From contig JAKLKU010000004.1 of the NCBI GenBank assembly GCA_023150475.1, positions 248,001 to 312,000 of the forward strand: 64,000 nt of DNA, read 5' to 3'. Both the position numbers and the translations under genes were made by a program. The notes beneath the pieces were generated by a model. It saw nothing but the letters and a program-made list of their open reading frames with translations. It was not told the DNA's origin and made no database searches. Shown here piece by piece: positions 44,291 through 64,000 of the stretch (the stretch's first letter is position 1; each line of letters begins with the position of its first letter). The DNA comes from Planctomycetota bacterium. GTDB taxonomy: Bacteria > Planctomycetota > UBA1135 > GCA-002686595.

Positions 44291-46258
44291 CTAAGGCACG
44301 GCGTCGCGCAACGGCTGGCGGCTGCGGTAGAGCTCACGCTCCCGTTCGAGCGCCTGGAGCAGCGGCGGGGGGCCGGACGGTCCGATCAGACCGAGCGCTC
44401 GCTCGACGGACGCGAGCGCTTCGTCGAAGCGCCCGAGCTCCGCGAGTGCCGCCGCGCGCAGCCGGGCGGTCGACGTCTGGTAGCCGAGCAGACTCGGGTT
44501 GGCCGCCTCGAGCAGCCGCAGCGCCTCCGCCCCGTCGCGCACCGCGTCGTCGCTCGAAGTCGCTCGCAGGAGCACGAGGCACTCGAAGACGCCCGGATCC
44601 TCGGGCAGTGCCGCCGATGCGCGGCCGAACGCGTCGAGCGCGGCGGTCGCCCGGCCGAGTCGCACTAACGCGCGGCCACGCGCCAGTTGGAACGCGCCGG
44701 ACTCCGGCGCGGCCGCGACCAATACGTCGAGGTGCTCGAGCGCGCCCGCCGCGTCGCCGCGCATCAAGAGCGCCTTGGCGAGGTTCTCGCGTTCGAGGGT
44801 CGCGTTCGGCAGGAGCTCGACCGCTCGCCGCCAGTGCGTGATCGCGTCGTCCAAACGCCCGAGTTGGGCTTCGAAGCGCGCGAGGTTGTTGTACCAGAGC
44901 GGCCATTCGGGGTGCAGCTCGACCGCGCGCTGATAGGCGGCGCGTGCGTCGTCGATCCGTTGACGCTTCTCGAATGCATCGCCGAGGTGGGCCCACGCGC
45001 GATCGTTCTCGGGCCAGTGCTCGAGCGTCACGCGCCACATGCGCTCCTCGTCGGCGAAGTTCGCGTTCGCGCGCTGCGTCATCCAAGCGCTCGCGCCCGC
45101 GAGCAACGCGAACGTCGCCAAGGTCGGCGCGAGCCGGGCGCCGGTGCTGCGGACCAGCACGAACGCGAGCAGGCCCATCAGGCTCGCGAGCGGCAGGTAC
45201 ATGCGGTGGAGCGCGTAGAGCTCCATCGGGATCGGCACGAGGCTCGAGGCCGGCGCGAGCAAGAGGAAGAAGCTCACCGCGATCACGCCGAGTCGCGGCG
45301 CACGCCAGCACGCGTGGGTACTCGCGAGCACCAGCAGCGCGACGAACGTGGCGTGAGGCAACCACTCGGCGAGCGAACGTGGGATCGGCCAACCGTAGTC
45401 GATCAGGATCGGCGTCGGCCACAACACGAGGCGCAGGTACTCGACGATCGCCGGACCTTGCGCTTGCAGCCACACGGTCCACGTCACGCGTTCGACGAGA
45501 CCCTCCGCCGTGACGCGGTGGATGCCGCCGAACGCGACCGACAGCGCGACGAGCGGGAAGACCAGCGCGAGCGAGAGGTAGAGCGTGCGATGCGCGCGCC
45601 ACGCGGCGCTCGCCGACCCGCTCGCGAACGTCCAATCGAGCGCGAAGACGACGACCGGCAACATCGCGATGGATTCCTTGGCGCCGGCGCCGAGCGCCGC
45701 GCACGCCGTCGACAGCGCGACGAGCCCGAGCGCGCGTTCGCGCTTGAGGCTCGCGAGCGCCGCCCAGAGCCCCGCGAGGAAACAGAGCCCCATCAACGAC
45801 TCGCATCGTTGGATCACCAACGTCACGGCGCTCGTCTGCAGCGGATGCACGGCCCAGAGCAGCGCGGTGCCAAACGCGAGCAAGTCGCCGTGTTCGCGCA
45901 GAGGTCCGCTCGCGCGCGGCAGCCGCCCGAGCGCTCGCACGGCTCCGAAGAGGCACAGCGCCGCCGCGACGTGGATCGCAAGGTTGGTCGCGTGGTAGCT
46001 CCACGTCGCGAGCTCGCTCATCGCGTAGTTCAGCGCGAACGTGAACGCGACGACGGGGCGGCCGGTCAAGCCGCAACCGGGCACGGCCCACCAGTCGGTG
46101 GTGGGGGGCCAGAGCTGGCGCAGCGCCGGGTTGAGGACGATGTCGGGGATGTCGTCGAAGAGCAAGACGCCCGAGAACGAGTTCGCGAAGGCGCTGCAAG
46201 TCGCGACGACGAGGACGAACGCGTAGAGCTTCGAACGGTCGCGCCGCGGCTCGGTCAT
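44291..46258 (-). CDS. Second TMTC-like membrane glycosyltransferase with TPR tail
   Basis: A 655-residue paralogue of the protein at 30254-32335. The early motif LLFDDIPDIVLNP, then WSYHATNLAIHV and AVHPLQTSAVTLVIQRCESL, match the same family; about ten membrane helices follow, and the last 270 residues are TPR repeats such as AWAHLGDAFEKRQRIDDARAAY. ATG at 46258 is chosen because GGAGG lies nine bases upstream, while the ATG at 46267 would touch that site. The gene lies 60 bases after fliN on the same strand and may be the last gene of operon B. Substrate sugar and target proteins are unknown. Confidence 0.8.
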   Translation of the reverse strand: MTEPRRDRSKLYAFVLVVATCSAFANSFSGVLLFDDIPDIVLNPALRQLWPPTTDWWAVPGCGLTGRPVVAFTFALNYAMSELATWSYHATNLAIHVAAALCLFGAVRALGRLPRASGPLREHGDLLAFGTALLWAVHPLQTSAVTLVIQRCESLMGLCFLAGLWAALASLKRERALGLVALSTACAALGAGAKESIAMLPVVVFALDWTFASGSASAAWRAHRTLYLSLALVFPLVALSVAFGGIHRVTAEGLVERVTWTVWLQAQGPAIVEYLRLVLWPTPILIDYGWPIPRSLAEWLPHATFVALLVLASTHACWRAPRLGVIAVSFFLLLAPASSLVPIPMELYALHRMYLPLASLMGLLAFVLVRSTGARLAPTLATFALLAGASAWMTQRANANFADEERMWRVTLEHWPENDRAWAHLGDAFEKRQRIDDARAAYQRAVELHPEWPLWYNNLARFEAQLGRLDDAITHWRRAVELLPNATLERENLAKALLMRGDAAGALEHLDVLVAAAPESGAFQLARGRALVRLGRATAALDAFGRASAALPEDPGVFECLVLLRATSSDDAVRDGAEALRLLEAANPSLLGYQTSTARLRAAALAELGRFDEALASVERALGLIGPSGPPPLLQALERERELYRSRQPLRDAVP

Positions 46259-48447: not shown

Positions 48448-49248
48448 TCAGTTCACTTCTGTGGGGACCGGTTGGATGAGGCGTGCGTCGACCGCAGCAG
48501 GGACACCGTCCGCGAAGCGCGGTTCACGTGCCCAGGCGCGAGCTTCGACGCGTTGGTTGACGAACGTGTGCGTCGTGATCAAGTAGTCCCGCACGGCGGC
48601 CGCGCGGCGGAACGCGGTCACCGGATCGGTCGCGTGACCTTCGAGGATCAGCAGCTGCCCGAAACCCGGGCGGAGGCTCTCGGCGATCAGGTCGAGGTAC
48701 TTGGTGGCCTTGGCGTCGAGCTCGACCGAGTCCGCGGCGAAGCGCGCGATCACCGGTTGCGGCAACGCGTTGTACGAACGCAACGCCGTGTCGAGGATGC
48801 GGCGCACTTCGTCGAGATTGCGCGCGTCGACGCGACCTTCGAGCAGCTCCTCCTCCGTGATCTCGTCGAGCCCGAAGTTCTTGCGGAAGAGGTTGACGGC
48901 GTTCAGGTATTCGGCGCCGGAGAGCGGCGCGCCCATGCCCTTGCTTTCGAGCGCCACGACGAACGTGCCGAGACCGCGCGCCATCAGGCCCGCGTCCTGC
49001 TTCTTCGCCATCGTCACGAGGATGATGAAGAAGCAGAGGAACAGGGTCATCATGTCGCCGAACGAGATCAGCCACGGCGGAGGACCGTGGTGACCGTGGT
49101 CGTGATCGCCTTTGTGGCCGCCGTGACCACCGTGGCCGCCATGACCTCCGTGCCCGCCGTGTTCTTCGTGACCGCCGTGACCCTCCGCGCCGCCGTGCGC
49201 GTGCGGATCGGGCTCGCCGTGGCCGTGTGACGAATGGGCTTCGCTCAT
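48448..49248 (-). CDS. MotB-like protein with histidine-rich N-terminus
   Basis: A 266-residue MotB-family stator protein. The first 54 residues hold 17 histidines, largely as HGG repeats, before a membrane helix WLISFGDMMTLFLCFFIIL in which Asp65 sits in the position of the proton- or ion-binding aspartate. The C-terminal domain is OmpA-like but weak; ILEGHATD matches the motif. It follows the standard motB by seven bases. The histidine part could bind Zn, Ni or Cu, or be a flexible linker; it lies on the cytoplasmic side. The encoding region around 49105-49200 is a tandem of 9-base units. Confidence 0.85.
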   Translation of the reverse strand: MSEAHSSHGHGEPDPHAHGGAEGHGGHEEHGGHGGHGGHGGHGGHKGDHDHGHHGPPPWLISFGDMMTLFLCFFIILVTMAKKQDAGLMARGLGTFVVALESKGMGAPLSGAEYLNAVNLFRKNFGLDEITEEELLEGRVDARNLDEVRRILDTALRSYNALPQPVIARFAADSVELDAKATKYLDLIAESLRPGFGQLLILEGHATDPVTAFRRAAAVRDYLITTHTFVNQRVEARAWAREPRFADGVPAAVDARLIQPVPTEVN

Positions 49249-49255
49249 GACGGCC

Positions 49256-49963
49256 TCAGCGGTCGCGGTCCTTGGCGCCGGCCCAGCCGAGCGCGTGGTC
49301 GCTGGTCACGGCGAGCACGCGCAGCGTGACGCGGCGATTGAGTTTGCGGCCCAACGCGGTGCTCTCGACCGCGCGCAGTTTCGTGGCGCCCTGGCTCGAG
49401 ACCTGGAGTTGTTCGGGCCGGAGCTTGCTGCTCGCGAGCAAGGCGCGCGCCGCTTCGCTCGCCCGTTCGAGTCCGAGCCGTTCGACGTCGTGTGATTCTG
49501 ACTCCTTGGAGTCGGTGTGGCCTTCGACGAGCACCAACTGATCGTGTTTCGCGAGCAGCGGCCCGAGCTTCGCGAGCTCCTTCGCCAGCGTCTCGGAGAC
49601 TTCGAACGAGCCCACGGCGAACGAACACTCCGAACCGAACTCGATCGCGAGTCCGTCGACGGCTGCGTCCAACACCACGCGTCGTTCGGTGTCCGCCGCG
49701 CGGTGGACGTCGAGGTCGCGCGCGAGGCTCGCGAGCATCGAACGGTCGATCTCGATCGGCGGACCGAACCCGGTGAGGTTCGGGAACACGCCACCGCGGC
49801 CTTTCAACAGACCGACACCGATCGCCTTGACGTCGCCTTTGTCCGACGTCGAGAACGTCATCATCATCAAGAAGAACGTGACGAGCAGCGAGATCATGTC
49901 GCAGTAGCTGACGAGCCAGCCTTCACCCGCGCCTTCCGGTGCCTCGTGCTTCTTCTTGCCCAC
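49256..49963 (-). CDS. motB: MotB stator protein
   Basis: Stator subunit that anchors to peptidoglycan. The 235-residue protein has WLVSYCDMISLLVTFFLMMMTFS with the key Asp22 in the membrane helix, and a clear OmpA-like domain with LVEGHTDS, ERLGLERASEAARALL and KLNRRVTLRVL. Length is near that of short MotB. It starts six bases after motA in the transcript direction, so the two are a standard motAB pair, with an additional MotB-like gene following. Confidence 0.93.
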   Translation of the reverse strand: MGKKKHEAPEGAGEGWLVSYCDMISLLVTFFLMMMTFSTSDKGDVKAIGVGLLKGRGGVFPNLTGFGPPIEIDRSMLASLARDLDVHRAADTERRVVLDAAVDGLAIEFGSECSFAVGSFEVSETLAKELAKLGPLLAKHDQLVLVEGHTDSKESESHDVERLGLERASEAARALLASSKLRPEQLQVSSQGATKLRAVESTALGRKLNRRVTLRVLAVTSDHALGWAGAKDRDR

Positions 49964-49969
49964 GGCGCA

Positions 49970-50743
49970 TCAACCCTTGACACGCTCGCGCTCCGCCGGA
50001 GCGAGGAAGCCTTTGAGCTTCTCCTTGATCAACTGCGGCTTCTCGCCGGATTGGATCGCGACGATGCCGGCGATCATCAACTCGCGCAGTTGCGTCTCTT
50101 GTTTGTTGCGCTGATCGAGTTTGCCCGCCATCGGCAGGAAGAGCATGTTCGCCGCGAACGCGCCGTAGAACGTGCCGACGAGCGCGCCGGCCATGCCCGC
50201 GCCGATCTTCGACGGGTCCGACAAGTTGGAGAGCATCTGCACGAGGCCGATCAGCGTCTCCACCATCCCGAACGCCGGCGCGAACGTGCCGAACTGTTCG
50301 AGCATCTTCTTGCCCGTCGCGTGACGCTGTTTGGCGATCTCCGCTTCGACTTCGAGGATGTCGCGCACCGTGTCGGCGGAGAAGCCGTCGATCACGAGCT
50401 GCATGCCCTTCGCCATGAACTTGTCGTCGACCTGCTTGAGCTTGCTCTCGAGCGACAGCAAGCCTTCCTTCCGCGCGAGCGTCGCGTAGTCGATGATCCG
50501 GTCGATCTCCTCCGCGGGGGTCGGCAGCGGATACAAGAACGCGCGCAGGATGACCTTGACGAGGTTCTTCACCTCTTCGATGCGGAAGTGGATCATCACT
50601 GCCGCGAGCGCGCCGCCGAACACGACGGCGAAAGCCGCCGGGTGCACGAACAGCACGAGGCCTGGGAGTCCGCCGACGTGGGCCATCGACCAAGTGATGA
50701 GGCCGAGGCCGAGCGCGAAGCCGAGCAGTGTGGAGATGTCCAT
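49970..50743 (-). CDS. motA: MotA stator protein
   Basis: Stator subunit with four membrane helices. The 257-residue protein has GFALGLGLITWSM, the cytoplasmic loop with RAFLYPLP and SLESKLKQVDD, then the paired helices PAFGMVETLIGLVQML and GTFYGAFAANMLFLPMAGKL, both containing the conserved residues and prolines of MotA/PomA. It lies downstream of the MotE-like gene with a 127-base gap that may hold an internal promoter. Confidence 0.95.
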   Translation of the reverse strand: MDISTLLGFALGLGLITWSMAHVGGLPGLVLFVHPAAFAVVFGGALAAVMIHFRIEEVKNLVKVILRAFLYPLPTPAEEIDRIIDYATLARKEGLLSLESKLKQVDDKFMAKGMQLVIDGFSADTVRDILEVEAEIAKQRHATGKKMLEQFGTFAPAFGMVETLIGLVQMLSNLSDPSKIGAGMAGALVGTFYGAFAANMLFLPMAGKLDQRNKQETQLRELMIAGIVAIQSGEKPQLIKEKLKGFLAPAERERVKG

Positions 50744-50870: not shown

Positions 50871-51701
50871 CTACTTCGCGGTCTTCGCCGCGAGCGCCTT
50901 CGTGTAGGCCTCGGCGAACTCGCGCCACTTGGCCTGCGGCAACGCGTCGAGCAGCTCCTTCGCGCGTTCCGGAGTCAGCGTGACGAGGATCTTCGCGGCC
51001 TCTTTCGGCCCGTAGGTCGTCAAGCGCGACGCGAGCGCGTCGAGCTCGCCATCCTCGAACATCGCACCGAGCGCCTTGATCGACTTCTGTTCGACCTCGG
51101 TCTTCTTCTCGGTTTCGTCCTGGAGCTCCTCCGCGCGCGCCGCGAGTTCGGCCTGCAGCTCCTCGAGCTCGGTCTTCATCGCGTCGAGCGCCTTCTGACG
51201 ATCCTCGATCGCTTCGAGGCGGTCGTCGGCGAGCTCTTCCTTGGTCGCGAGCTCGGCCATGCGGCGATCGAGCTCGGCGTTCTTCTTCTCGAGCGTCTCG
51301 ACGAGCTCGCGCAGCTCGTCGCTCGTGTACGGCGAGTCGAACTTGAACGAGCCGAGCAAGTCGGCGGTCGCTTCGCGCGACTTGTTCGACTTCGAGGACG
51401 CGTGCGTGCCGGCGGGCGTCGTCTTCGAGCCGTGCGTTTCGCCGCCCGCGACTTCACCGTGCGTCTCGTGCGCTTCGGTCCCGGTGGAGTCGGCTGCGCC
51501 TTCGGTCGAGTGTTCCGCGCCTTCGCTCGCGTGCTCGTCGCCGTGCGCACCTTCTTCCTCGGGCGGCGCGGGGAACAGCGAACCGAAGACCGGCAGCGTG
51601 TGCATGGGCACGCCGTTCATCTTCGCGAAGCCGATGTAGGCGACGGAGAAGAGGAAGAGTCCGCCGGCTCCGGCCAGCGACATCGTGGCGACCTTGTTCA
51701 T
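50871..51701 (-). CDS. MotE/FlbB-like membrane-anchored coiled-coil protein
   Basis: A 276-residue protein with a membrane helix (about 7-25), an Ala/Glu/His-rich stretch, a long coiled coil (about 125-215), and an end domain, MFEDGELDALASRLTTYGPKEAAKILVTLTPERAKELLDAL, resembling the MgtE N-terminal or FliG-like helix repeat. This arrangement fits MotE of alphaproteobacteria or FlbB of spirochetes, which support stator assembly. It lies between fliJ and motA, a typical place. The family link rests on architecture. Confidence 0.75.
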   Translation of the reverse strand: MNKVATMSLAGAGGLFLFSVAYIGFAKMNGVPMHTLPVFGSLFPAPPEEEGAHGDEHASEGAEHSTEGAADSTGTEAHETHGEVAGGETHGSKTTPAGTHASSKSNKSREATADLLGSFKFDSPYTSDELRELVETLEKKNAELDRRMAELATKEELADDRLEAIEDRQKALDAMKTELEELQAELAARAEELQDETEKKTEVEQKSIKALGAMFEDGELDALASRLTTYGPKEAAKILVTLTPERAKELLDALPQAKWREFAEAYTKALAAKTAK

Positions 51702-54052: not shown

Positions 54053-55061
54053 GCTCTTGCCCCGCTCGTGCCGGGCGGAACTCGCCCGATTCCATCAAGG
54101 TGCGCACGGCCTTCATGATCTCGTTGCGCGCGTTCAAGACTTCCTGCATCGGCAGGGCGCCGGCGAGCTCGCGCTCTTCGGCGACCATGACGCGGACGCG
54201 TTCGGAGAGGTTGGCCATCACGTTGCCTTCGACCTTCGGCGAGCAGGCCTTCAGCGCGATCGACAGCGTCTTCGTGTCCACCGACGCGAGGATCTTCTGC
54301 ATCGGCCGTTTCTCGACCTTCGCGAGGTCCTCCCACGTGAACATGAACTCGCGCACTTCCTTGGCGAGATCGGCGTCGTCCTTCGCCATCGAGTCGAGCA
54401 CGTTCGTCTCCACTTCGGCGGGCGAGAAGTTGAGCATGTCGGCGATCGTCTTCTTGCGCAGTGTCGGTTCGGTGACCACCGGACCGGACGCGATCTCCTT
54501 CAGGCGCGCCGAAAGGTCCTCGGAGATCGCGACGAGCACGTCGGTCGACGGCGGCGTGACGCTCGCCATGCGCTTGACGACGTCGTAGGCGCGTTTCGGC
54601 TCGAGCGAACGCAACACGTCCGCGGAGAGCGACGGATCGAGGTGCGCGAGCACGAGCGCGATCACGGGCTCGCTCTGTTCGCCCAGCGCGATTGCGATGT
54701 TCTTCGACGGCTCCTTCTCGATCACCATGAAGGGGCGTTCTTGTTGGAGCCGGTGCTGGATCTTGTGGAAGAGCTCTTGCGCCTGCTGCTTGCCGAGCGT
54801 CGACTCGATCAGCGCGTAGAGCTCGGACTCGCTCTTGCGTCGGACGCCGCGCGGGCCGGCGAGCGACTTGATCATCTCCTTGTAGAGCTCGCGCACGCCT
54901 TCGGCGCCGGTCAAGTCGGCGGGCAGTTCGCCCATCGCTTCGACGACTTCGACGATCACTTCGGGGTCGATGTGCTTGAGCACGGTCGCCGCGTGCTCCT
55001 TCTCGAGCGTCAGCAGGAACGCGGCGGCGCGTTGTGCGCCGCTGACTTCGTCGAGGGTCAT
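54042..55061 (-). CDS. fliG: FliG flagellar motor switch protein
   Basis: Rotor protein that interacts with MotA. The 339-residue protein has the three-domain order: N-terminal QRAAAFLLTLEKEHAATVLKHID, middle LAHLDPSLSADVLRSLEPKRA, and C-terminal FMFTWEDLAKVEKRPMQKILASVDTKTLSIALKACS-like part with the charged torque helix. ATG at 55061 overlaps the fliF stop by one base. Strong full-length match. Confidence 0.96.
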   Translation of the reverse strand: MTLDEVSGAQRAAAFLLTLEKEHAATVLKHIDPEVIVEVVEAMGELPADLTGAEGVRELYKEMIKSLAGPRGVRRKSESELYALIESTLGKQQAQELFHKIQHRLQQERPFMVIEKEPSKNIAIALGEQSEPVIALVLAHLDPSLSADVLRSLEPKRAYDVVKRMASVTPPSTDVLVAISEDLSARLKEIASGPVVTEPTLRKKTIADMLNFSPAEVETNVLDSMAKDDADLAKEVREFMFTWEDLAKVEKRPMQKILASVDTKTLSIALKACSPKVEGNVMANLSERVRVMVAEERELAGALPMQEVLNARNEIMKAVRTLMESGEFRPARAGQELVS

Positions 55062-56662
55062 CAGCTACCGCCCCGCGCCGCAGCGCGGCTGTCACCGGCC
55101 CAACGAGAGAGGATTTCGCCGACGCGCCGCGGGTCGGTGCGGACGAGCTCCTCGATGCGCGCACGAGCCAACGCTTCGGGATCGGGCTCGCTCTCGCCGA
55201 CCGAGACGGACGAACCGTCGCCGACGGAGCCGCCCAGCGCGGCGGACGGCGAAGCAGCGGAGCCTCCGGACTTCGCGCCCTTCATCGCCTTCAGCAGCAC
55301 GAAGAGGAACACGATCGCCGCGACGATCTCGACGCCGCGCTCGAGCAGCATGCGCATCATCGGCGACGGACCGCCGCTCTCCTCGGCGGCGGGCTCGGTC
55401 GGGTTCGCCGGATCGGCCGCCGTTTCGGTCGCGAACGTCGTCGTGCCCACTTGGATCACGTCCTCGCGACCCTTGTCGAAGCCGACCGCGGCTTGGACGA
55501 TCGCTTGGATCTCGTCCTTCTTCGCGGCGAGCGAGTCGTCGAGCAACAGCGAGACGGACAGGCGACGCAACATCGGCGTCGCGTGCACCGTCTGCGTCTT
55601 CGAGCGCGCGGTCTCGTAGCTCTTCTCGGTCTCGTTCGAGGTCGAGAGCTGGGGCGTCGTGCTCGCCGTGGTCGATTCGCCGGCGACGGCCGCGTTGTCG
55701 ACGCCGAACGAACCTTCGTTCGGCACGTTCGACGCCGAGCCGGCCGGACCGCCGTTCTGCGAAACGCCGCCCATCGGCGTCTCGCTCTTGATCGTCTTCT
55801 CGCTGACCAACGTGCCTTTCGGCGAGAGCGTCTCGCTCACCGTCGTGCGTTGGTCGTAGTCCCACTCGGACGTGACCGCGACGTGCGCCTTCTTCAGGCC
55901 GTAAGCGAGCGTGAGCTGTTGGTTGACCTTCTCTTCGAGCCCACGGTCGTAACTCCGCGCGTGGTCCATCAACGCGGCCGGGTCGCTGCCGAAGCTGCCG
56001 GCGGAAGCCGGGTCGTACAGCGCGCGGCCGGTTTGATCGGAGACGATCACGTTCTCGGCGGGGACGCCGAAACGGAACCGCACGAGCTTGGCGACGTTCT
56101 CCGCGCGGTCGCGCGAGAGTTCGACCAAGTTCTTGAGCTTGAGCGTCACCGACACCGTCAGCGGCTTGCGTTCGCGGATCGGCGACGGGTCGGGCATCGA
56201 GCTCGTCACCGTCGCGTCGGCGACGAACTCGAGCGACTCGAGCTGGCGTTCCATCTCCTCCCAATCGCGCTTGAGCATCGACTGAGCGCGTTCCGCCGAC
56301 GACAGGAAGATCGCGGCGGCGCCGCCGACCGACGAGTCGACGCCGCGCGGCATCTCCTTCAGTGCGCCGGAGAGCGCGACGAGGTTCTGCGCTTCGTAGA
56401 ACGTGTCCTCGTCGACGTAGACGTTGTACGGTCCGGGCGGCTGGCTGACCTTGTAACGGATCGAGCCACCGGCGAGTGCCTTCTCCACGCCGCCGCGCGA
56501 AGGGTCGTCGATGCCGCTGTAGAGCAGCACGAAGTTCGGCCGATCGGCGAGCATCGTGCCGACCGTGATCGCGACGATCACGGCCGCCGCGGCGAGCACG
56601 AGCACGAGCTTCGTGCGCGGCGCGGCGTTCTTCAGCGAATCGAGCAGATTGTTGAGGTCCAA
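55061..56662 (-). CDS. fliF: FliF MS-ring protein
   Basis: Forms the MS ring that seeds the basal body. The 533-residue protein has membrane helices near the two ends (about 18-40 and 445-465), with RNFVLLYSGIDDPSRGG-like and YKVSQPPGPYNVYVDED ring motifs and a SVSLLLDDSL segment. The C-terminal tail RARIEELVRTDPRRVGEILSRWAGD is the FliG-binding part. A Ser/Thr/Gly-rich section lies at 285-355. Length is normal. Confidence 0.95.
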   Translation of the reverse strand: MDLNNLLDSLKNAAPRTKLVLVLAAAAVIVAITVGTMLADRPNFVLLYSGIDDPSRGGVEKALAGGSIRYKVSQPPGPYNVYVDEDTFYEAQNLVALSGALKEMPRGVDSSVGGAAAIFLSSAERAQSMLKRDWEEMERQLESLEFVADATVTSSMPDPSPIRERKPLTVSVTLKLKNLVELSRDRAENVAKLVRFRFGVPAENVIVSDQTGRALYDPASAGSFGSDPAALMDHARSYDRGLEEKVNQQLTLAYGLKKAHVAVTSEWDYDQRTTVSETLSPKGTLVSEKTIKSETPMGGVSQNGGPAGSASNVPNEGSFGVDNAAVAGESTTASTTPQLSTSNETEKSYETARSKTQTVHATPMLRRLSVSLLLDDSLAAKKDEIQAIVQAAVGFDKGREDVIQVGTTTFATETAADPANPTEPAAEESGGPSPMMRMLLERGVEIVAAIVFLFVLLKAMKGAKSGGSAASPSAALGGSVGDGSSVSVGESEPDPEALARARIEELVRTDPRRVGEILSRWAGDSRAAARGGS

Positions 56663-56679: not shown

Positions 56680-57048
56680 TCACACGCTCATCCGCATGGT
56701 TTCGCGGTATGCGTCGATCAGCTTGTTGCGGACTTCCATCGCGAACTTGAACGAGAGTTCGACCTGTTTGATCTGCACGGCGAGCTCGTGGAAGTCGCCG
56801 ACCTTGCCCGTGACCATGTCCGCGGGCAGTTCGTCGATGCGGTTGATCGACGCGTTGACTTCGCGCAGGCCACGTTCGAGGCTTTCGCCGAACGCCGGCG
56901 CCTTCGGAGCGCCCGAGACGTCGAGTCCGCCCGTCGCGAAGCTCTTCGACACGTCCGCTTCGACGCGTTTGGCGCTCTCCGACTGCGTGCGCAACGCCGC
57001 TTCGATGGCGGCGCGGGCGAACGAGCTGGATCCGATTCCGTCGACCAT
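56680..57048 (-). CDS. fliE: FliE rod adaptor protein
   Basis: Links the MS ring to the rod. The 122-residue protein has the family C-terminus FKFAMEVRNKLIDAYRETMRMSV, and a middle VNASINRIDELPADMVTG. It is slightly longer than E. coli FliE (104). Its place between flgC and fliF is the standard order. The small gene at 28819 resembles its last helix. Confidence 0.93.
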   Translation of the reverse strand: MVDGIGSSSFARAAIEAALRTQSESAKRVEADVSKSFATGGLDVSGAPKAPAFGESLERGLREVNASINRIDELPADMVTGKVGDFHELAVQIKQVELSFKFAMEVRNKLIDAYRETMRMSV

Positions 57049-57068: not shown

Positions 57069-57497
57069 TCACTGCAGCATGCGCAGCGCGCGTTCGGCCA
57101 TCGACACGAACGACTCCTGCGCCGACAAGTTCGCTTCGTAGGCGCGCGAGGCCGAGATCAGGTCGACCATCTCGTGCGTCGTGTTGACGTTGGGCATCGT
57201 CACGTAGCCCGACGCATCCGCGTCCGGGTGCCCGGGGTTCAGCACCTTCTCCATCGGCGACACCATGTCCGGCTGCACGCCGCGGACCTTGACGCCGACG
57301 ACTTCGGGGCCGCCCTCCGCGCGTTCGAGCATCGACTCGAACCACACCACCTGACGGCGGTACGGCACGCCTTCGGGCGTGTGCGTGGTCTCGGCGTTCG
57401 CCAAGTTGCGTGCGATGACGTCCATGCGCAGACGTTCGGCGGCGAGGCCGCTCGAGGACGCGCGCATGCCGGAGAAGAGATGTGAGATGCCGCCCAT
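57069..57497 (-). CDS. flgC: FlgC proximal rod protein
   Basis: A 142-residue rod subunit. N-terminal FSGMRASSSGLAAERLRMDVIARNLANAET and C-terminal NVNTTHEMVDLISASRAYEANLSAQESF are diagnostic. ATG at 57497 is chosen; a TTG two codons earlier would overlap the flgB stop. Fits the flgB-flgC-fliE order. Confidence 0.94.
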   Translation of the reverse strand: MGGISHLFSGMRASSSGLAAERLRMDVIARNLANAETTHTPEGVPYRRQVVWFESMLERAEGGPEVVGVKVRGVQPDMVSPMEKVLNPGHPDADASGYVTMPNVNTTHEMVDLISASRAYEANLSAQESFVSMAERALRMLQ

Positions 57498-57499
57498 GA

Positions 57500-57856
57500 T
57501 CAACGCGAGTTTTCGAGGGAGACGCGGATGAGGTTGTACTTCGCAGTCAAGATCGCCGCGTAGGAGTCGTAGAGGAGCTTGTTCTCGCGCAGCGCGTGCA
57601 TCTCGAGCTCGAGGCTCGTGTTGTTGCCGTCCGCGCGAGCAGGCGTGACGAGATCGAGCTCGATCTCGGGCGCGACCGTCGTCGGGTCGCGCCCGGATTC
57701 GAGCGCCTTCCGCACCGCCTCTTCGAAGCGCACCATCCTGCGCGTGTAGCCCGGCGTGTTGACGTTCGCGATGTTGCCCATGACGACCTCCTGCCGACGC
57801 ACGGAGGCCGAAAGCAATTGCGACAGCAGATCGCCGGATTCGACGCGCAGGTCCAT
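57500..57856 (-). CDS. flgB: FlgB proximal rod protein
   Basis: A 118-residue rod subunit with the N-terminal motif LSASVRRQEVVMGNIANVNTPGYTRR and C-terminal LELEMHALRENKLLYDSYAAILTAKYNLIR, both canonical. It begins one base after the activator gene stop and is the first structural gene of operon B. Confidence 0.93.
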   Translation of the reverse strand: MDLRVESGDLLSQLLSASVRRQEVVMGNIANVNTPGYTRRMVRFEEAVRKALESGRDPTTVAPEIELDLVTPARADGNNTSLELEMHALRENKLLYDSYAAILTAKYNLIRVSLENSR

Positions 57857-57857
57857 G

Positions 57858-59240
57858 TCACGCCACCAAACCGAGACGACGCCAGAGCTTCATCTTGTTG
57901 GAAAGCGTGCGCGCGCTGACGCCCATGCGGCGCGCCGCTTCGGTCTTGTTGCCGCCGGTCGAGTGCAGCGTCGCGAGGATCGCTTCGCGTTCGATGTCGG
58001 CGAGCGGACGATTCGCCAGGCTCATGTTGAGCCCGTCGACCACCACGCCCTGCGGCCCGGTGACCTTGTTGCTCGAGGACGACGGCCCGAAGACCAGATC
58101 GTCGACTTGCACCGTGTCGCCGTGCATCAGCACGACGGCGCGCTGGATCACGTTCTCGAGCTCGCGGACGTTGCCCGGCCACGACCAGCTCTTGAGCCGC
58201 TCTTCCGCGTCGCGCGAGAGTTTCGCGTTCTCGACGCCGTTCTGCGCGGCGAAGCGGCGCAGGAAGTGCTTGGCGAGAGGAAGCACGTCTTGGGGACGCT
58301 CACGCAACGGCTTCAGGTGGATCGGCAGCACGTGCAGGCGGTAGTAGAGGTCCTCGCGGAACGTGCCGCGTTGGACTTCGGCCGCGAGGTCGCGATTCGT
58401 GGTCGCGATCACGCGCACGTCGACGCGCAACGTCGTCGTGCCGCCGACGCGTTCGAACTCCTCTTCTTCGAGGACGCGCAGGAGCTTCGCTTGCAGCGCG
58501 GGCGAGATCTCGCCGATCTCGTCGAGCAGCAGCGTGCCCTTGTCCGCGAGCTCGAAGCGACCTTCGCGCGTCTTGTGCGCGCCGGTGAACGCTCCGCGCT
58601 CGTGGCCGAAGAGCTCGCTCTCGAGCAACGTCTCGGACAGCGCCGCGCAGTTGACGCGGATGAACGGACCGGACGTGCGCGGGCTTTCCTTGTGGATCGT
58701 CTGCGCGATCTTCTCCTTGCCGGTGCCGGACTCGCCGGTGATCAACACCGTGCCCTTCGAGCGCGCGACGCGTTTTGCCGCGCGCAGCGTTTCCTGCATC
58801 GCCGGGCTCTCGGCGACGAGTTCGTTCGGGCCGCCGACTTCGGCGCGCAAGTAGCGGTTCTCGCGCTCGAGCCGTTGCGCACGATCGACGCGCTCGATCA
58901 GGAGCTTCAACGTCTCCGGCGTGACCGGCTTCATCAGGAAGTCGGCCGCACCGCTCGCCATCGCTTCGACGGCGGTTTCGACCGTGCCATGCGCCGTGAT
59001 CATCACGACGGGCAGGCCGGGAACGTGCTCGTGGATGCGCTTGACGAGCTGCATGCCGTCGGTTCCGGGCATGCGCAGGTCGGTGATGACGAGGTCGGGC
59101 GAGGTCGAGGTCGCGATCGCGAACCCTTCCTCTCCGCTCTTCGCCTGCGTCGCCTTGAATCCGAGGGCCGTGACGGCCTCGACCAGGAACTCGCGCGACA
59201 GGGAGTCGTCGTCGACGACCAGGATCTCTCGAATCGACAT
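57858..59240 (-). CDS. Sigma-54-dependent response regulator (FlrC/FleR type)
   Basis: A 460-residue NtrC-family activator. The receiver has the phosphorylation site Asp54 (VITDLRMPG). The AAA+ domain has Walker A GESGTGKE (169-176) and the sigma-54 contact loop GAFTGA (216-221), both intact. The C-terminus is a Fis-type helix-turn-helix (GNKTEAARRMGVSARTLSNKMKLWRRLG). It lies between the kinase gene and flgB, so it is the probable regulator of the sigma-54-type promoters in operon A. The nearest counterparts are FlrC and FleR. Confidence 0.93.
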   Translation of the reverse strand: MSIREILVVDDDSLSREFLVEAVTALGFKATQAKSGEEGFAIATSTSPDLVITDLRMPGTDGMQLVKRIHEHVPGLPVVMITAHGTVETAVEAMASGAADFLMKPVTPETLKLLIERVDRAQRLERENRYLRAEVGGPNELVAESPAMQETLRAAKRVARSKGTVLITGESGTGKEKIAQTIHKESPRTSGPFIRVNCAALSETLLESELFGHERGAFTGAHKTREGRFELADKGTLLLDEIGEISPALQAKLLRVLEEEEFERVGGTTTLRVDVRVIATTNRDLAAEVQRGTFREDLYYRLHVLPIHLKPLRERPQDVLPLAKHFLRRFAAQNGVENAKLSRDAEERLKSWSWPGNVRELENVIQRAVVLMHGDTVQVDDLVFGPSSSSNKVTGPQGVVVDGLNMSLANRPLADIEREAILATLHSTGGNKTEAARRMGVSARTLSNKMKLWRRLGLVA

Positions 59241-59244
59241 CTTT

Positions 59245-60435
59245 CTAGCTCTTGGATTGGAAGGGGATGGTGATGCAGAAGTCGGCGCCGCCGAGCGGAG
59301 CCTTCTTGGGGGAGAGTTCGACTCGACCGCCGTGCAGCACGGCGATCGTGTTTACGAGTGCGAGGCCGAGGCCCGTGCCTTCGGCGCGCGACGTGAAGAA
59401 CGGCTCGAGCACGCGAGCGCGGTGTTCGGGCGGCACGCCCGGACCGGCGTCGGTGACGCGGAACGTCACGTCGTCTCGACCGACGCGGACCGCGACGTCG
59501 ACGGAGCCGCCCGACGGTTGGGCTTGGATCGCGTTCGCGATCAGGTTGCGCAGCGCTTGGCGCAGCTTGACGTAGTCGCCGTCGAAGCTCGGCACCGGTT
59601 TCGGCTCGATCGACGTCGTGATGCGCCAACGTTCCACGCCCTCGAGCGCGAGCGTGGCTTCGCGGATCGCGTCGGGGACGAGTTCTTCCGCTTCGACGCG
59701 GTCGCGGCGCAGCGCGTCGCTGCGGGCGAGCGTCAACATGCTGCCGAGCACTTGATCGGCGCGCCGCACGCCTTCGACGACGTTGGCGGCGAGCTCGCGT
59801 TCGCGCGAGCCCTGCGGCAGACGCTGCTGCAGGAGCGACGCGAAGCCTTGGATCGCGTGCATCGGGTTGCGCAGCTCGTGCGCGATGCCGCTCGCGACGT
59901 TGCCGAGCGCGGCGAGCTTCTCCTGCGCGTGCAGCTTCGACGTCAGCCGCGCGAACTCGGTACGGTCGTCGACGATCGCGACCGTGCCGATGGCGGCACC
60001 ATGCGACTCGATCGGCGAGCGTTTGCACGCGACGACCCGGACGTCGCCGTTCGACGTCTCGAGCTCGCGACCGTCGCCGGCGGCTTCGATCGCGGCGAGG
60101 CGTCGCGCGGCCGCGACGTCGAGCTCGGCGAGTCGCTCGGGTCCGTCCACTCCGACGAGCGCGCACGCCGCACGGTTGATCCGCGCGATGCGGCCGTCGC
60201 CGTCGCGCACGATCACGCCGCTCGGCAGGGCTTCGAGGATCGCTTCGAGGTGGTGCGAGAGCTCGTCGAGCTCCGCGACCTTGCGCGCGAGTTCGTTCTC
60301 GACGCGCTGCGCGCGCTTCTCGATCGCTTGGTAGCTCTCGATCAGCCCGGCGCTGACCTCGGCGAACGAGCGCATCGCCGCTTCCAGGTCGGACGCCGAC
60401 AGGGCGCCCGTGTTCGTCGGAAGCGTCGGGTTCAC
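59245..60435 (-). CDS. Sensor histidine kinase with PAS domain (FlrB/FleS type)
   Basis: A 396-residue soluble kinase. A coiled coil (about 25-60) leads to a PAS domain (about 65-165), then the dimer domain with the phospho-acceptor His186 in GIAHELRNPM, and a HATPase domain with DAGPGVPPEH and GTGLGLALV. No membrane helix is visible, so it senses an internal signal, perhaps basal-body progress as in FlrB-type kinases. GTG at 60435 overlaps the upstream gene by four bases (GTGA) and four bases separate it from the activator. Confidence 0.9.
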   Translation of the reverse strand: MNPTLPTNTGALSASDLEAAMRSFAEVSAGLIESYQAIEKRAQRVENELARKVAELDELSHHLEAILEALPSGVIVRDGDGRIARINRAACALVGVDGPERLAELDVAAARRLAAIEAAGDGRELETSNGDVRVVACKRSPIESHGAAIGTVAIVDDRTEFARLTSKLHAQEKLAALGNVASGIAHELRNPMHAIQGFASLLQQRLPQGSRERELAANVVEGVRRADQVLGSMLTLARSDALRRDRVEAEELVPDAIREATLALEGVERWRITTSIEPKPVPSFDGDYVKLRQALRNLIANAIQAQPSGGSVDVAVRVGRDDVTFRVTDAGPGVPPEHRARVLEPFFTSRAEGTGLGLALVNTIAVLHGGRVELSPKKAPLGGADFCITIPFQSKS

Positions 60436-61178
60436 GGCTTCGTGACCTCCGTGCGTTTCGCTTCGAAGCGCATCTGCCACTCGAGGAACTCGAGCGCTTC
60501 CTTGGCGCGCGCCGCGTCGGCGCCGCCGTCCTTCGCGTCCCGCGCGGCGCGATACGCGACCAGCGCTTCGTCTCGGCGGGCGAGCTTCTCGAGACACCGT
60601 CCGCGCCAGTAGTTCGAACTCGCGTCGGCGGATGCTTCGTCGAGCACCGCGAGCGCTTCGCCATAGCGAGCCTGCTTGAAGTAGGCGCGCACGAGCTTCA
60701 GCGGATCCGCGACGTAGCCGTGCGTCTCGAACGCGGAGGGCGCGTGCGTGTCGCCCGACTTGCGCGTGCCGGCCGGTCGTTCGTTGCGCGCGGGCTTCGC
60801 CGACGGCGCCGACGCGCCGCCGCGCGGCTTCGCGGGCTCTTCGTCGAGGACGCCGACGACGAGCGGTTCCGCGCCGGGAGCGCGCAGCACGTCGTGACGG
60901 CCCTGCAGACGCTGGATCTCGTCACGGAGTTCGTCGCGGCGCTGGTCACGCTCCGCGTCGGTGCCGAACGGAGGTTCGGTGACGCGCAGGAGGTCTTGCA
61001 CCGCGCTCGGGTCCTTCTCGGCGAGGCGCTTCTCGATGCCGGCGAGTTCGTCGAGCACCGCGACGGTCTTCTGCAGCGAATCACCGAGCGACTTCGCGTC
61101 GCCGCCTTGGAGCGCGACGGCGGGAACGAGCAGGACGATCGCAGCGCCGACGTTGGTCGCGAACGAGTGCTTCATCAT
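60432..61178 (-). CDS. Exported coiled-coil/TPR protein of the flagellar operon head
   Basis: A 248-residue protein with a hydrophobic signal region (VGAAIVLLVPAVAL), a coiled-coil part (DSLQKTVAVLDELAGIEKRLAEKDP, RRDELRDEIQRL), a low-complexity Pro/Ala linker, and a C-terminal TPR pair (LVRAYFKQARYGEALAVLDEA). It overlaps the kinase gene by four bases and the upstream gene by one. CpoB/YbgF-like proteins share a coiled-coil plus TPR layout, but no identity is claimed. Probably periplasmic. Confidence 0.7.
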   Translation of the reverse strand: MMKHSFATNVGAAIVLLVPAVALQGGDAKSLGDSLQKTVAVLDELAGIEKRLAEKDPSAVQDLLRVTEPPFGTDAERDQRRDELRDEIQRLQGRHDVLRAPGAEPLVVGVLDEEPAKPRGGASAPSAKPARNERPAGTRKSGDTHAPSAFETHGYVADPLKLVRAYFKQARYGEALAVLDEASADASSNYWRGRCLEKLARRDEALVAYRAARDAKDGGADAARAKEALEFLEWQMRFEAKRTEVTKP

Positions 61179-62635
61179 CACAGTCGCCCCTGGTAGGCCT
61201 CGACGGCGGCGTCGAGGCGGTCGTGTGCTTCGTAGAGGTCGCCGGCGAGCACGTAGATCGCACGGCGCGCGTCGGCCGAGTGCAGCTCGGGCACCACGGT
61301 GCGCAGCGCGTCGATCGCGGAGTCGACGCTCTTCGCTTCGGCGAGGGCGCGGGCGTAGAGCTCGAGCACTTCGAGCAACTCTGTTTCCTCGAGGTCCTTG
61401 CGCGCGTCGAACATCGGCTTCAACACGCCGAGTGCGTCGCGGGCCGCGCCGCCGGCGAGCAGCCGACGCGCACGATCGAGGCGTTCGCCGCGTTCGTCGG
61501 TCGGACGCAGCAGTTCGTCGATGCCGAGTTCCTGCGCCGCGCGCTGACGGATCTCGAGCGCGGTCTCGTCGGTGCGATCCGCGTCGGCGAGTCGGCTGAT
61601 GAACATCGCGCCGAGCTCGTCGCCGGATTCGAGCGCGAGCCGCGCGGCTTGCGTGAAGGCGATCGCGCGCTCGGCGCCCTTCGCGGCGCGGCCGTAACGC
61701 AGCCACGCTTGCGAAGCTTCGGCGGGCGCTCCGGTGCGTTCGATGGCGCGCGCGCGCAGCTCGAGCAGCTCGAGCGCGAACTCGTCGCGTGCGCCGAGCC
61801 GTTCGACGTAGTCCAACGTCGCGATCGCGGCCGTCGTCTCGCCGGCGGCGAGTTCGGCGCGTGCGCGGATCAGTTGGCGGCGTTGGATCTCGGAAGGCTC
61901 GGACGCCGGTTGGTACGTGTCGACGACGTCGAGCATGAAGAACGCGTGCTCGTGGTCGCCGAGCATCGCGTGGGCCCGAGCGAGCAGGAGCCGCGCCGGG
62001 ATCTCGTAGCCGTGACGTCGATCGAGGCGCAGGAGATCGGTCAGCCGCGTGACGACGCTGGCCCACTCGTGCTGCGAAGCCAGGAGCTCCGCGGAACGCA
62101 TCAACGCGTCCGGCAACTTCTCCGAGTTGCGGTGCCGTTGGATCGTCGCTTCGAGGTGCGCGATCGCCGCCGGCACGTTCCCACGCGCTTCTTCGATCGC
62201 GGCTTGCGCGAGCTTCGCTTCGACTGCGCCGGGGTGATCGGGCCACCGCCGTTGGGCGGTGAGGTACGTCGCGACGGCGAGGTCACGCAGCTCGTCGGCG
62301 GTCGCGTGTTCGTGATCGAGCGCGTCGACGCGCAGGACGTTGGTGCGCAGCTCGGCCCCGCAGCCGACGGCACCGAGCACGCGTGCGAGCACTTCGTGGA
62401 GCTCACGATCGTCGAGTTGCGCCGTGATCTCCTGCTCGGCCGCGACCGAGTCGAGGCCTTCGACGTGCACGCCCAATTTGAGCGCGAGCGAACGGAGGAC
62501 GTCGCGCAAGTTGGCGCGGTGCGCTTCGAGCGAGCACCACCAGCGGCCGTCGCGCCGCTCGACGCGGATGTCGTAACCGTCGCCGGCGAACGCAGGCGCG
62601 GCGAACAGGACGAGGAAGAGCGCGGCGAACTTCAT
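61178..62635 (-). CDS. Exported STN-domain and TPR-repeat protein
   Basis: A 485-residue exported protein. Signal peptide MKFAALFLVLFAAPAFA is followed by a segment LRDVLRSLALKLGVHVEGLDSV and a second, AQLDDRELHEVLARVLGAVG, that look like the STN domain found at the N-terminus of secretins and TonB receptors. The remaining 380 residues are TPR-like helical repeats. ATG at 62635 has a GGAGGAG ribosome site. It overlaps the next upstream gene by four bases. The role is unknown; a periplasmic scaffold around the basal body is an inference from context. Confidence 0.72.
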   Translation of the reverse strand: MKFAALFLVLFAAPAFAGDGYDIRVERRDGRWWCSLEAHRANLRDVLRSLALKLGVHVEGLDSVAAEQEITAQLDDRELHEVLARVLGAVGCGAELRTNVLRVDALDHEHATADELRDLAVATYLTAQRRWPDHPGAVEAKLAQAAIEEARGNVPAAIAHLEATIQRHRNSEKLPDALMRSAELLASQHEWASVVTRLTDLLRLDRRHGYEIPARLLLARAHAMLGDHEHAFFMLDVVDTYQPASEPSEIQRRQLIRARAELAAGETTAAIATLDYVERLGARDEFALELLELRARAIERTGAPAEASQAWLRYGRAAKGAERAIAFTQAARLALESGDELGAMFISRLADADRTDETALEIRQRAAQELGIDELLRPTDERGERLDRARRLLAGGAARDALGVLKPMFDARKDLEETELLEVLELYARALAEAKSVDSAIDALRTVVPELHSADARRAIYVLAGDLYEAHDRLDAAVEAYQGRL

Positions 62636-63489
62636 CGGTGCTCCTCCGCGGACTCGGGAGCATGCGCGGCGTGTTCGTCCGGGCTCGCCGTCTGCGTGTC
62701 GGCCGTTCCGTGTTCGTCTCGGGCGTCGGCCTGCCGGCGGAACGCTTCGGCGATCAGCAACGTCGCGCGCGCTTCGAGATCGTCGCGGCGCTCGGGCGGC
62801 CAACGATCCGCGACGGCGAGCAGACCCCAGAGGAGCTGCCGCGCGCGTTCGTAGTCGCCGCGTTCGATCGCGGCGTGCGCGGACTCGAGCGTCTCTTCGC
62901 CCTCCGGCCGCGCTTCGAGTTGCGCCGGGATGTGCGTTTCGAACTCGTCGACGTGGCCGCCGGCGTGCGACGCGCCGTCGCGGCTCGACGGTTCGTCGGC
63001 GTGACTCGGACCGGCGGCTGCGCGCGCGCCGAGCGATTGTTGGAGCGTCGCCATCGACTTCCACGTCAGTCCGATCAACCCGAGGTTCGCGAGCGCGAAC
63101 ACGGCGAGTCCGACGAGCAAGAGCGGCGAAGCGCGCAAGTCGCCGAGCGAGCGCCGCGCGCCGCCGCTCGCGGGCTCGAGCGTCGAGCCCGGCTTCGTGG
63201 CGTCGTTCGCGCCCGCGCCTGCGGTCGACGTCGCCGCGGTTTGGACCGGGGCCGCGTCCGCCTTCGTCGCCGTTGGCGCAGTGACGGCGGTACCCGGCGC
63301 GGGCCCGAGCACGGCGGCCATCGCTTCTTCGTTCGGATCGCGCTGCGCCGACGCACCGCCGCTGCCCTTCGGGAGCGGCGCGACGTCGAGCGGTGCGATC
63401 TTCGGCTCCGTCAGCTCGTCGAAGCTGAACAGGTCGTCGTTCTCGTCGATCGCCGACTTCGGCGTGACGTGGTTCGGCGTGTCGCTCAT
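62632..63489 (-). CDS. Single-pass membrane protein with Ala/Pro-rich cytoplasmic tail and periplasmic repeat
   Basis: A 285-residue protein with an acidic start (IDENDDLFSFDELTEPK), a long Ala/Thr/Pro-rich region, one membrane helix at about 121-143 (LLLVGLAVFALANLGLIGLTW), and a C-terminal half with a helical TPR-like repeat (LESAHAAIERGDYERARQLLWGLL), ending in a His/Glu-rich tail. ATG at 63489 overlaps the upstream stop (ATGA). No family was recognised. It could carry a signal between the ATPase encoded upstream and the periplasmic proteins encoded downstream. Confidence 0.7.
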   Translation of the reverse strand: MSDTPNHVTPKSAIDENDDLFSFDELTEPKIAPLDVAPLPKGSGGASAQRDPNEEAMAAVLGPAPGTAVTAPTATKADAAPVQTAATSTAGAGANDATKPGSTLEPASGGARRSLGDLRASPLLLVGLAVFALANLGLIGLTWKSMATLQQSLGARAAAGPSHADEPSSRDGASHAGGHVDEFETHIPAQLEARPEGEETLESAHAAIERGDYERARQLLWGLLAVADRWPPERRDDLEARATLLIAEAFRRQADARDEHGTADTQTASPDEHAAHAPESAEEHR

Positions 63490-64000
63490 CGCGAGCCTCC
63501 GTACGCGGAATCGAGCGCCGTGCGCGCGAGTTCGGTGTGGGTCGGACCGACGAGCAGCCGCCCGACGCTGACCGCCAGCGCGGGAGAGAGTTGATACGCG
63601 GGCTCGTCGACGCCGGCGAGCGAAGCGAGCACGCGCGCGGAGAGCTCCGGGGTCAGGTAGTCGAGCTCCGAGAGGTCGACACCGGCCTCTTCCTCGAAGC
63701 GCACGTGCCACGCCGCGAAGCGGAGTTGGATGCGCGTGCCGCGCCGCGTGCCCGCGTCGATCCGCAGGTCCTCCGCCAACGCGGCGGCGCGACCCAGGCC
63801 GTGCACGGCGTCCGCCGTGACGTGCGGGTCGATGCCGATGCCGTGATCGCGCACCTCGACGAGCAGCTCTCGCGCGGCGAGCGTCGCACGGAGCTCGAAC
63901 TCGCCGAGACCGTCTCCGTAGGCGTGCCGCGCGACGTTGTCGACGAGCTCGTGGACGGCCGCGGCGACGCGCGCACGCGTCGACGGACCGAACGACCAGC
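63486..64000 (-). CDS. Anti-sigma-type HATPase (RsbW/SpoIIAB-like), 5' part outside the window
   Basis: The last 171 codons or so of a gene that continues beyond the right edge. The N-box VHELVDNVARHAYGDG with Glu and Asn for Mg-ATP, and the G1 box VRDHGIGID, identify a GHKL ATPase of the anti-sigma/serine-kinase type; the GTRRGTRIQL segment matches the lid end. A C-terminal extension of about 70 residues (SELDYLTPELSARVLASLAG) is unusual for RsbW and may be a separate module. It is the first gene of operon B visible here. Partners such as an anti-anti-sigma factor would lie beyond the edge. Confidence 0.8.
   Translation of the reverse strand, partial: WSFGPSTRARVAAAVHELVDNVARHAYGDGLGEFELRATLAARELLVEVRDHGIGIDPHVTADAVHGLGRAAALAEDLRIDAGTRRGTRIQLRFAAWHVRFEEEAGVDLSELDYLTPELSARVLASLAGVDEPAYQLSPALAVSVGRLLVGPTHTELARTALDSAYGGSR

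Follow-up and report, generated by a model that had tools for sequence, protein, structure and literature searches.

Three consecutive genes, P2, P3 and P4, in a 64,000-nucleotide stretch of a Planctomycetota genome (assembly GCA_023150475.1, contig JAKLKU010000004.1, positions 248,001 to 312,000; hereafter the window) would encode an envelope-anchored scaffold of tetratricopeptide repeat (TPR) proteins, a spoke, of the planctomycete flagellar motor. We give this reading of the sequence a probability of roughly 0.55. It was preferred because a TPR chain anchored in the membrane and bearing a PilQ-type domain was found alongside another TPR protein and an E-ring protein, with a strict tie to flagella and with variable regulators. 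The genes belong to a run on the minus strand in the order RR1-HK1-RECW-P2-P3-P4-HK2-RR2-flgB-flgC-fliE-fliF-fliG-fliH-fliI-fliJ-FlgY-motA-motB, followed by further genes. RR1 and RR2 are sigma54-type activators, HK1 and HK2 are kinase-type proteins and RECW combines a receiver with an RsbW-type ATPase. The last part of the window lies inside this operon, and the reading was continued past the window end into the upstream genes. The window already contains the genes for core rod, hook, P/L-ring, switch and stator; P2-P4 therefore come on top of a complete basal body.

A first-pass annotation of the window had placed RECW, P2, P3 and P4 as a four-gene module at the head of the flagellar structural operon. 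The four open reading frames (ORFs) are real and recur in the same order in relatives, but HK1 and RR1 lie further upstream, outside the window. The gene overlaps behind the translational coupling proposed for the whole block were confirmed from RECW to HK2, being of 4 bp at RECW/P2, P2/P3 and P4/HK2 and of 1 bp at P3/P4 (4 bp if P4 starts at GTG 61181), but not for HK2/RR2 and RR2/flgB, which are separated by gaps of 4 bp and 1 bp. In relatives, where genes were called with a simple codon-usage caller, overlaps were found at 27/29 P2-P3 and 21/28 P3-P4 joints and were mostly of 4 bp at P4-HK2, and the RECW/P2 joint was usually a gap of 2 to 5 bp.

P2 (62632..63489; 285 aa) consists of a disordered cytoplasmic tail, one transmembrane helix (about residues 115-137) and a short periplasmic TPR-like domain of only about 60-70 residues, as judged from the alignment, transmembrane prediction and gene fusions. 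A single transmembrane helix was predicted in 27 of 29 members, in line with the single-pass protein with a disordered tail seen at first pass. The tail carries a D-L-F motif (DEDLFDF) that is invariant in the family alignment. The K/R values of the membrane flanks (2.2 versus 1.6) do not by themselves fix the orientation, and a comparison of P2 with solved structures gave no significant match.

P3 (61178..62635; 485 aa) is exported, with a hydrophobic N-terminal signal in 28 of 29 members. An STN/secretin-N0-like domain (residues 21-105), predicted as beta-beta-alpha-beta-beta-alpha-beta-beta, is followed by a TPR solenoid of about 10 repeats (residues 113-481), modelled by AlphaFold2 (AF2) with a mean predicted local distance difference test (pLDDT) of 86. 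The STN signal is weak in the single sequence. At the family level, Pfam STN and GspD N0 each matched 4 of 32 members, P3 matched the PilQ chains 6w6m and 4ar0 (E 3e-5 and 7e-5), and TPR models of Pfam matched the remainder, which has CpoB/YbgF-type similarity. The STN plus TPR architecture thus survived the remote-homology search that the first-pass annotation had proposed. P4 (60432..61178) is exported or anchored at its N-terminus, where all 28 members have a hydrophobic segment, and comprises a helical hairpin or coiled coil (residues 28-99), a linker and a TPR part (149-245), matching the exported coiled-coil and TPR protein described earlier. Its AF2 model had a pLDDT of 68, mostly above 90 in the TPR part, and similarity searches with P4 returned only generic TPR matches. 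AF2 models were built from 8-9 sequences.

The gene order from RR1 to flgB is kept from genus to genus in the bacterium's own family. A six-frame profile search detected P2, P3 and P4 in all 39 own-family genomes with a covered locus. Conservation in many genera rules out that they are chance ORFs. Flagellin was chosen as the flagellar marker because divergent FliF proteins of planctomycetes escape the TIGR00206 model. Among 81 genomes of the family, 65 had both P3 and flagellin, 12 had neither, four had flagellin without P3 and none had P3 without flagellin (Fisher p 2.6e-11, phylogeny not corrected). The four exceptions are all at most 78% complete. Losses were located in the separate genera g6, g8, g20, g23 and g60, and g20 and g60 contain both states, which indicates more than one loss event. 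The block was also present in two other families of the order, f8 (L068, L069) and f7 (L070-L072), and in the flagellated family f6 of the same order it was not located at flgB. Confinement of the block to its own family was considered and rejected, since other families carry P2-P3-P4.

In all, the envelope proteins recur beside flagellar genes in at least 22 Planctomycetota families. With a broader STN-plus-TPR profile, relatives of P3 with both parts were found in at least 76 genomes from 21 Planctomycetota families, and all of these are flagellin-positive (76/76 among the matches listed), compared with a base rate of 221/392 sampled genomes (56%; hypergeometric 1e-22, phylogeny not corrected). 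As the whole of P3 draws generic TPR proteins in a phylum search, only STN-covering matches were counted, and 76 is a lower bound. All 18 loci examined outside the order, to which a phylum-wide search with P3 had led, adjoin flagellar genes. In 14 of them P3 precedes P4 (or, at that position, a gene without a label), then HK2, a response regulator gene (RR) and flgB; in L149, at a contig edge, the order after P3 is P4-HK2-RR; and in L141, L145 and L148 P3 stands beside other flagellar genes. A contig scan with a profile from a subset of the P3 alignment returned eight loci, all from Planctomycetota metagenome-assembled genomes. The claim that an undescribed conserved block is tied to flagella is therefore supported, and the absence from relatives that might have overturned it did not appear at flgBC in the own family.

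P2 and P3 form a single ORF in L141 and L145-L148, with an N-terminal tail or transmembrane segment followed by TPR, STN and TPR parts. The tail of the L141 fusion protein also bears DLF. Most other loci outside the order have a separate small gene for a transmembrane and TPR protein directly 5' of P3, often with a 4 bp overlap. The fusion indicates that P2 and P3 work as one unit and, as P3 is exported, that the C-terminus of P2 is probably periplasmic.

A homolog of the E-ring protein is encoded directly after fliJ, between fliJ and motA (50871..51701). It has a transmembrane segment, a coiled coil and an MgtE_N-like C-terminus, and in this ARM-type domain, its coiled coil and its position it agrees with FlgY/MotE/FlbB proteins. 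The FlbB model NF047368 matched 21 of 22 family members (best 8.5e-9) and Pfam MgtE_N 13 of 22 (best 2e-6), with scores below the curated cut-offs that point to a distant homolog. FlgY homologs were present in 64 of the 81 family genomes; the 12 flagellin-negative ones had none. The E-ring is built from proteins of the FlgY type, which contact TPR spokes (PMC13023049). Genome G036 has a second P3 paralog (L047, G036:C44:24905-26377) between fliJ and the FlgY homolog, an arrangement that recalls the FlgY-PflA adjacency CC_2059/CC_2058 of Caulobacter (PMC11870540). These positions resemble E-ring systems with the TPR partners MotC, MotK or FlcB; unlike in such systems, P2-P4 are normally at the flgB end of the operon and not beside flgY.

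From these features we infer the following arrangement, including its place in the motor, its contacts and its role at the stators. P2 would anchor the assembly in the inner membrane, and the D-L-F motif of its acidic cytoplasmic tail probably docks on a cytoplasmic partner. The periplasmic end of P2 would continue into P3 (in one chain where the two are fused). The spoke would consist of the secretin-N0-like domain and the long TPR solenoid of P3, and P4 may cap or cross-link it through its hairpin and TPR. The likely neighbours are the E-ring of FlgY, which surrounds the MS-ring, and the stators of MotAB; the module would position these stators in the way known for PflA/PflB of Campylobacter and Helicobacter. 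The module would be made early, together with flgB-fliF and the flagellar kinase and activator.

PflA has a PilQ-like N-domain and TPRs, and PflB a cytoplasmic tail, a transmembrane helix and TPRs; TPR proteins near flagellar genes have already been proposed as candidate PflA homologs (PMC12222027, PMC11870540). P3 is similar to PflA in being exported, in having a PilQ-type domain before a TPR solenoid, and in its proximity to flagellar genes in a genome with FlgY. P2 is similar to PflB in its cytoplasmic N-terminal region, single transmembrane helix and periplasmic TPR part, the side of the membrane being deduced from the fusion to P3. In a Foldseek search P3 matched the C. jejuni scaffold chain 9hmf_K over a long alignment (E 3e-5) among many TPR matches, and this chain was not among the P3 sequence matches listed.

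Several observations weigh against a motor scaffold. Among the matches listed, 145 of the 221 flagellated planctomycetes sampled had no STN-containing match. The N-domain of PflA is an AMIN-like beta-sandwich, whereas that of P3 is of the alpha/beta STN/N0 type, and PflA has 16 repeats compared with about 10 in P3. The Foldseek resemblance is one that TPR solenoids share in general (198 matches at E<=0.001, TM-score about 0.3), and no sequence homology of P2-P4 to PflA/PflB was detected. With 285 aa, P2 is much shorter than PflB (about 820), its periplasmic part is short and it lacks the large TPR array with a central beta pair; P2 differs further in its D-L-F tail motif and in its fusion to P3 in some families. 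Finally, the tight linkage of P2-P4 to HK2 and RR2 could equally mean a regulatory role.

That regulatory role would be an assembly checkpoint, in which P2-P3-P4 detect how far the basal body or the envelope is assembled and signal via the P2 tail to HK2 (and to RECW where it is present), driving RR2 and RR1 at sigma54 genes. We regard it as possible, though unlikely. HK2 (59245..60435) is a soluble PAS-HisKA-HATPase kinase resembling FlrB, FleS and FlgS, and RR2 (57858..59240) has receiver, sigma54 activator and Fis helix-turn-helix domains as in FlrC and FlgR; the Pfam domains agree with the FlrB/FlrC-type pair recognised earlier downstream of P4. As in FlrB-FlrC, FleS-FleR and FlgS-FlgR, a soluble PAS kinase and a sigma54 activator are encoded, here in the flgB-fliF operon, but a second activator, RR1 (65377-66633), and a degenerate kinase, HK1 (64487-65200; L031 9488-10201), both beyond the window end, precede them in the run. 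Since P4 is followed by HK2 and RR2 in most loci, a checkpoint role keeps some probability; HK2 adjoins P4 and RR2 in nearly all loci. P3, P4 (or the replacement gene), HK2 and RR are consecutive in 15 of the 18 loci outside the order, P4 and HK2 mostly overlap, HK2 has no recognised transmembrane segment and so needs input, the D-L-F motif is conserved on the cytoplasmic side, and sigma54 is present in 80 of 81 family genomes. On the other hand, the P2-P3 fusion is kept without an adjacent HK2 in L141, L145 and L148 (P4 being kept too in L145 and L148), HK1 is degenerate, RECW is dispensable, and a sigma54 consensus scan 5' of the flagellin genes stayed at chance level. Adjacency in an operon alone is also no demonstration of signalling.

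It is rather doubtful, but conceivable, that P2-P3-P4 are a planctomycete-specific motor substructure with both functions, positioning stators and informing the neighbouring kinase and partner-switch regulators of assembly. If this were true, the spoke of secretin-N0 domain and TPRs, connected across the membrane by its D-L-F tail, would be at once a structural part and a checkpoint sensor. Periplasmic spokes and E-rings have been argued to be ancient motor parts, yet PflA/PflB are untraceable by sequence. The present module can be traced as a family, has a fusion form and keeps its synteny, and makes the spoke idea directly testable in a phylum whose cell envelope is unusual. The module also connects partner-switch regulators with an operon associated with the motor, a link that could reveal how these bacteria govern their swarmer state. 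Planctomycetota are not named in the main texts of two 2025 motor papers or in the E-ring review.

P3 and P4 might instead serve ring or stator assembly as periplasmic chaperones or localisation factors, similar to secretin pilots or CpoB, and not be structural motor parts. The N0-type domain, the CpoB/YbgF-type repeats and the hairpin of P4 would suit this role; it is improbable, as P2 ties P3 to the membrane by fusion and the P- and L-ring genes are present with their own FlgA chaperone.

RECW (63486..64000 in the window; full gene 63486-64490, 334 aa, with its start outside) matched HATPase_c_2 (8.5e-11) and Response_reg (0.0015), with weak NCBIfam RsbA/SpoIIAB/RsbW matches. The RsbW-like ATPase reported at first pass was thus confirmed, and the degenerate N-terminal receiver had been missed. 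The alignment retains E181, N185, D215, G217 and G219, the N-box and G1 residues of RsbW/SpoIIAB anti-sigma kinases, and the receiver Asp is not conserved. RECW resembles HsbR-HsbA and CrsR-CrsA in its receiver and RsbW-type ATPase, but unlike HsbR it has no PP2C phosphatase domain, and no STAS gene (L138-type profile) or phosphatase gene was found in own-family loci. The full HsbR-HsbA domain set, a receiver-SpoIIE/PP2C-RsbW protein and a STAS protein, lies between RR1 and P2, directly 5' of P2, in L138 (4669-6574), L139 (3797-5705) and L142 of another planctomycete family (GC 0.35-0.41), and a receiver-SpoIIE protein occurs in L140 and L143. Judging by GC and genome size, this low-GC family might be anammox-like. 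The preferred reading of RECW is that of a reduced relative of an HsbR-type flagellar partner switch.

Regulatory parts vary while P2-P4 persist. RECW is directly 5' of P2 in most own-family loci but is missing in four of 39 genomes with P2-P3-P4 intact (L034, L057, L080, L081), and no RECW-like protein was found in L134-L136. HK1 is absent from about nine of the 39. Most own-family members have lost its phospho-acceptor His, many having Arg instead, and L037, L041 and the f7/f8 relatives retain it; HK1 is, by these residues, a pseudokinase in the own family. Canonical anti-sigma FlgM was detectable in 22 of 81 family genomes, and its model had no match in the own genome. The first-pass proposal of an envelope path gating an anti-sigma switch therefore holds only in that a partner-switch-type protein belongs to the neighbourhood: absence of RECW from four genomes, no finding of it in several other families, loss of the HK1 His and the fusions without HK2 in L145 and L148 leave gating unsupported as the purpose of P2-P4, and TPR composition with FlgY favours the motor scaffold. 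That P2-P4 control RECW so that it sequesters a flagellar sigma factor is very improbable despite the precedent of HsbR-HsbA, which sets FlgM/FliA activity in Pseudomonas (PMC6482189, PMC5085249); such a path would not be the core function, and some regulatory coupling may exist.

As a separate observation on sigma54, many flagellated own-family genomes have two rpoN genes and most flagellin-negative ones (g20, g23, g60) have one, with exceptions both ways. Divergently upstream of the RR1 run are four flagellin genes, fliD and fliS. Downstream of RR2, flgB (57500..57856) and flgC (57069..57497) were assigned by synteny and homology, fliE (56680..57048) by synteny, and the MS-ring gene fliF (55061..56662) with TIGR00206 (E 1.3e-28 in the own genome). 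The stator genes are motA (49970..50743; Pfam MotA_ExbB 5.8e-28) and motB (49256..49963; MotB_plug 7.8e-14, OmpA 4.3e-13). Right behind motB, a second MotB-like protein with an OmpA domain is encoded at 48448-49248, its full ORF probably being 266 aa from ATG 49248. Directly 3' of fliN, a 655 aa protein (44291-46258) has a hydrophobic, probably multi-pass N-terminal half and strong TPR repeats. In L118 (G000:C22:386000-398000), flhA-flhF-flhG-fliA are followed by two small lipoprotein-like genes, which are kept in the relatives L119-L121.

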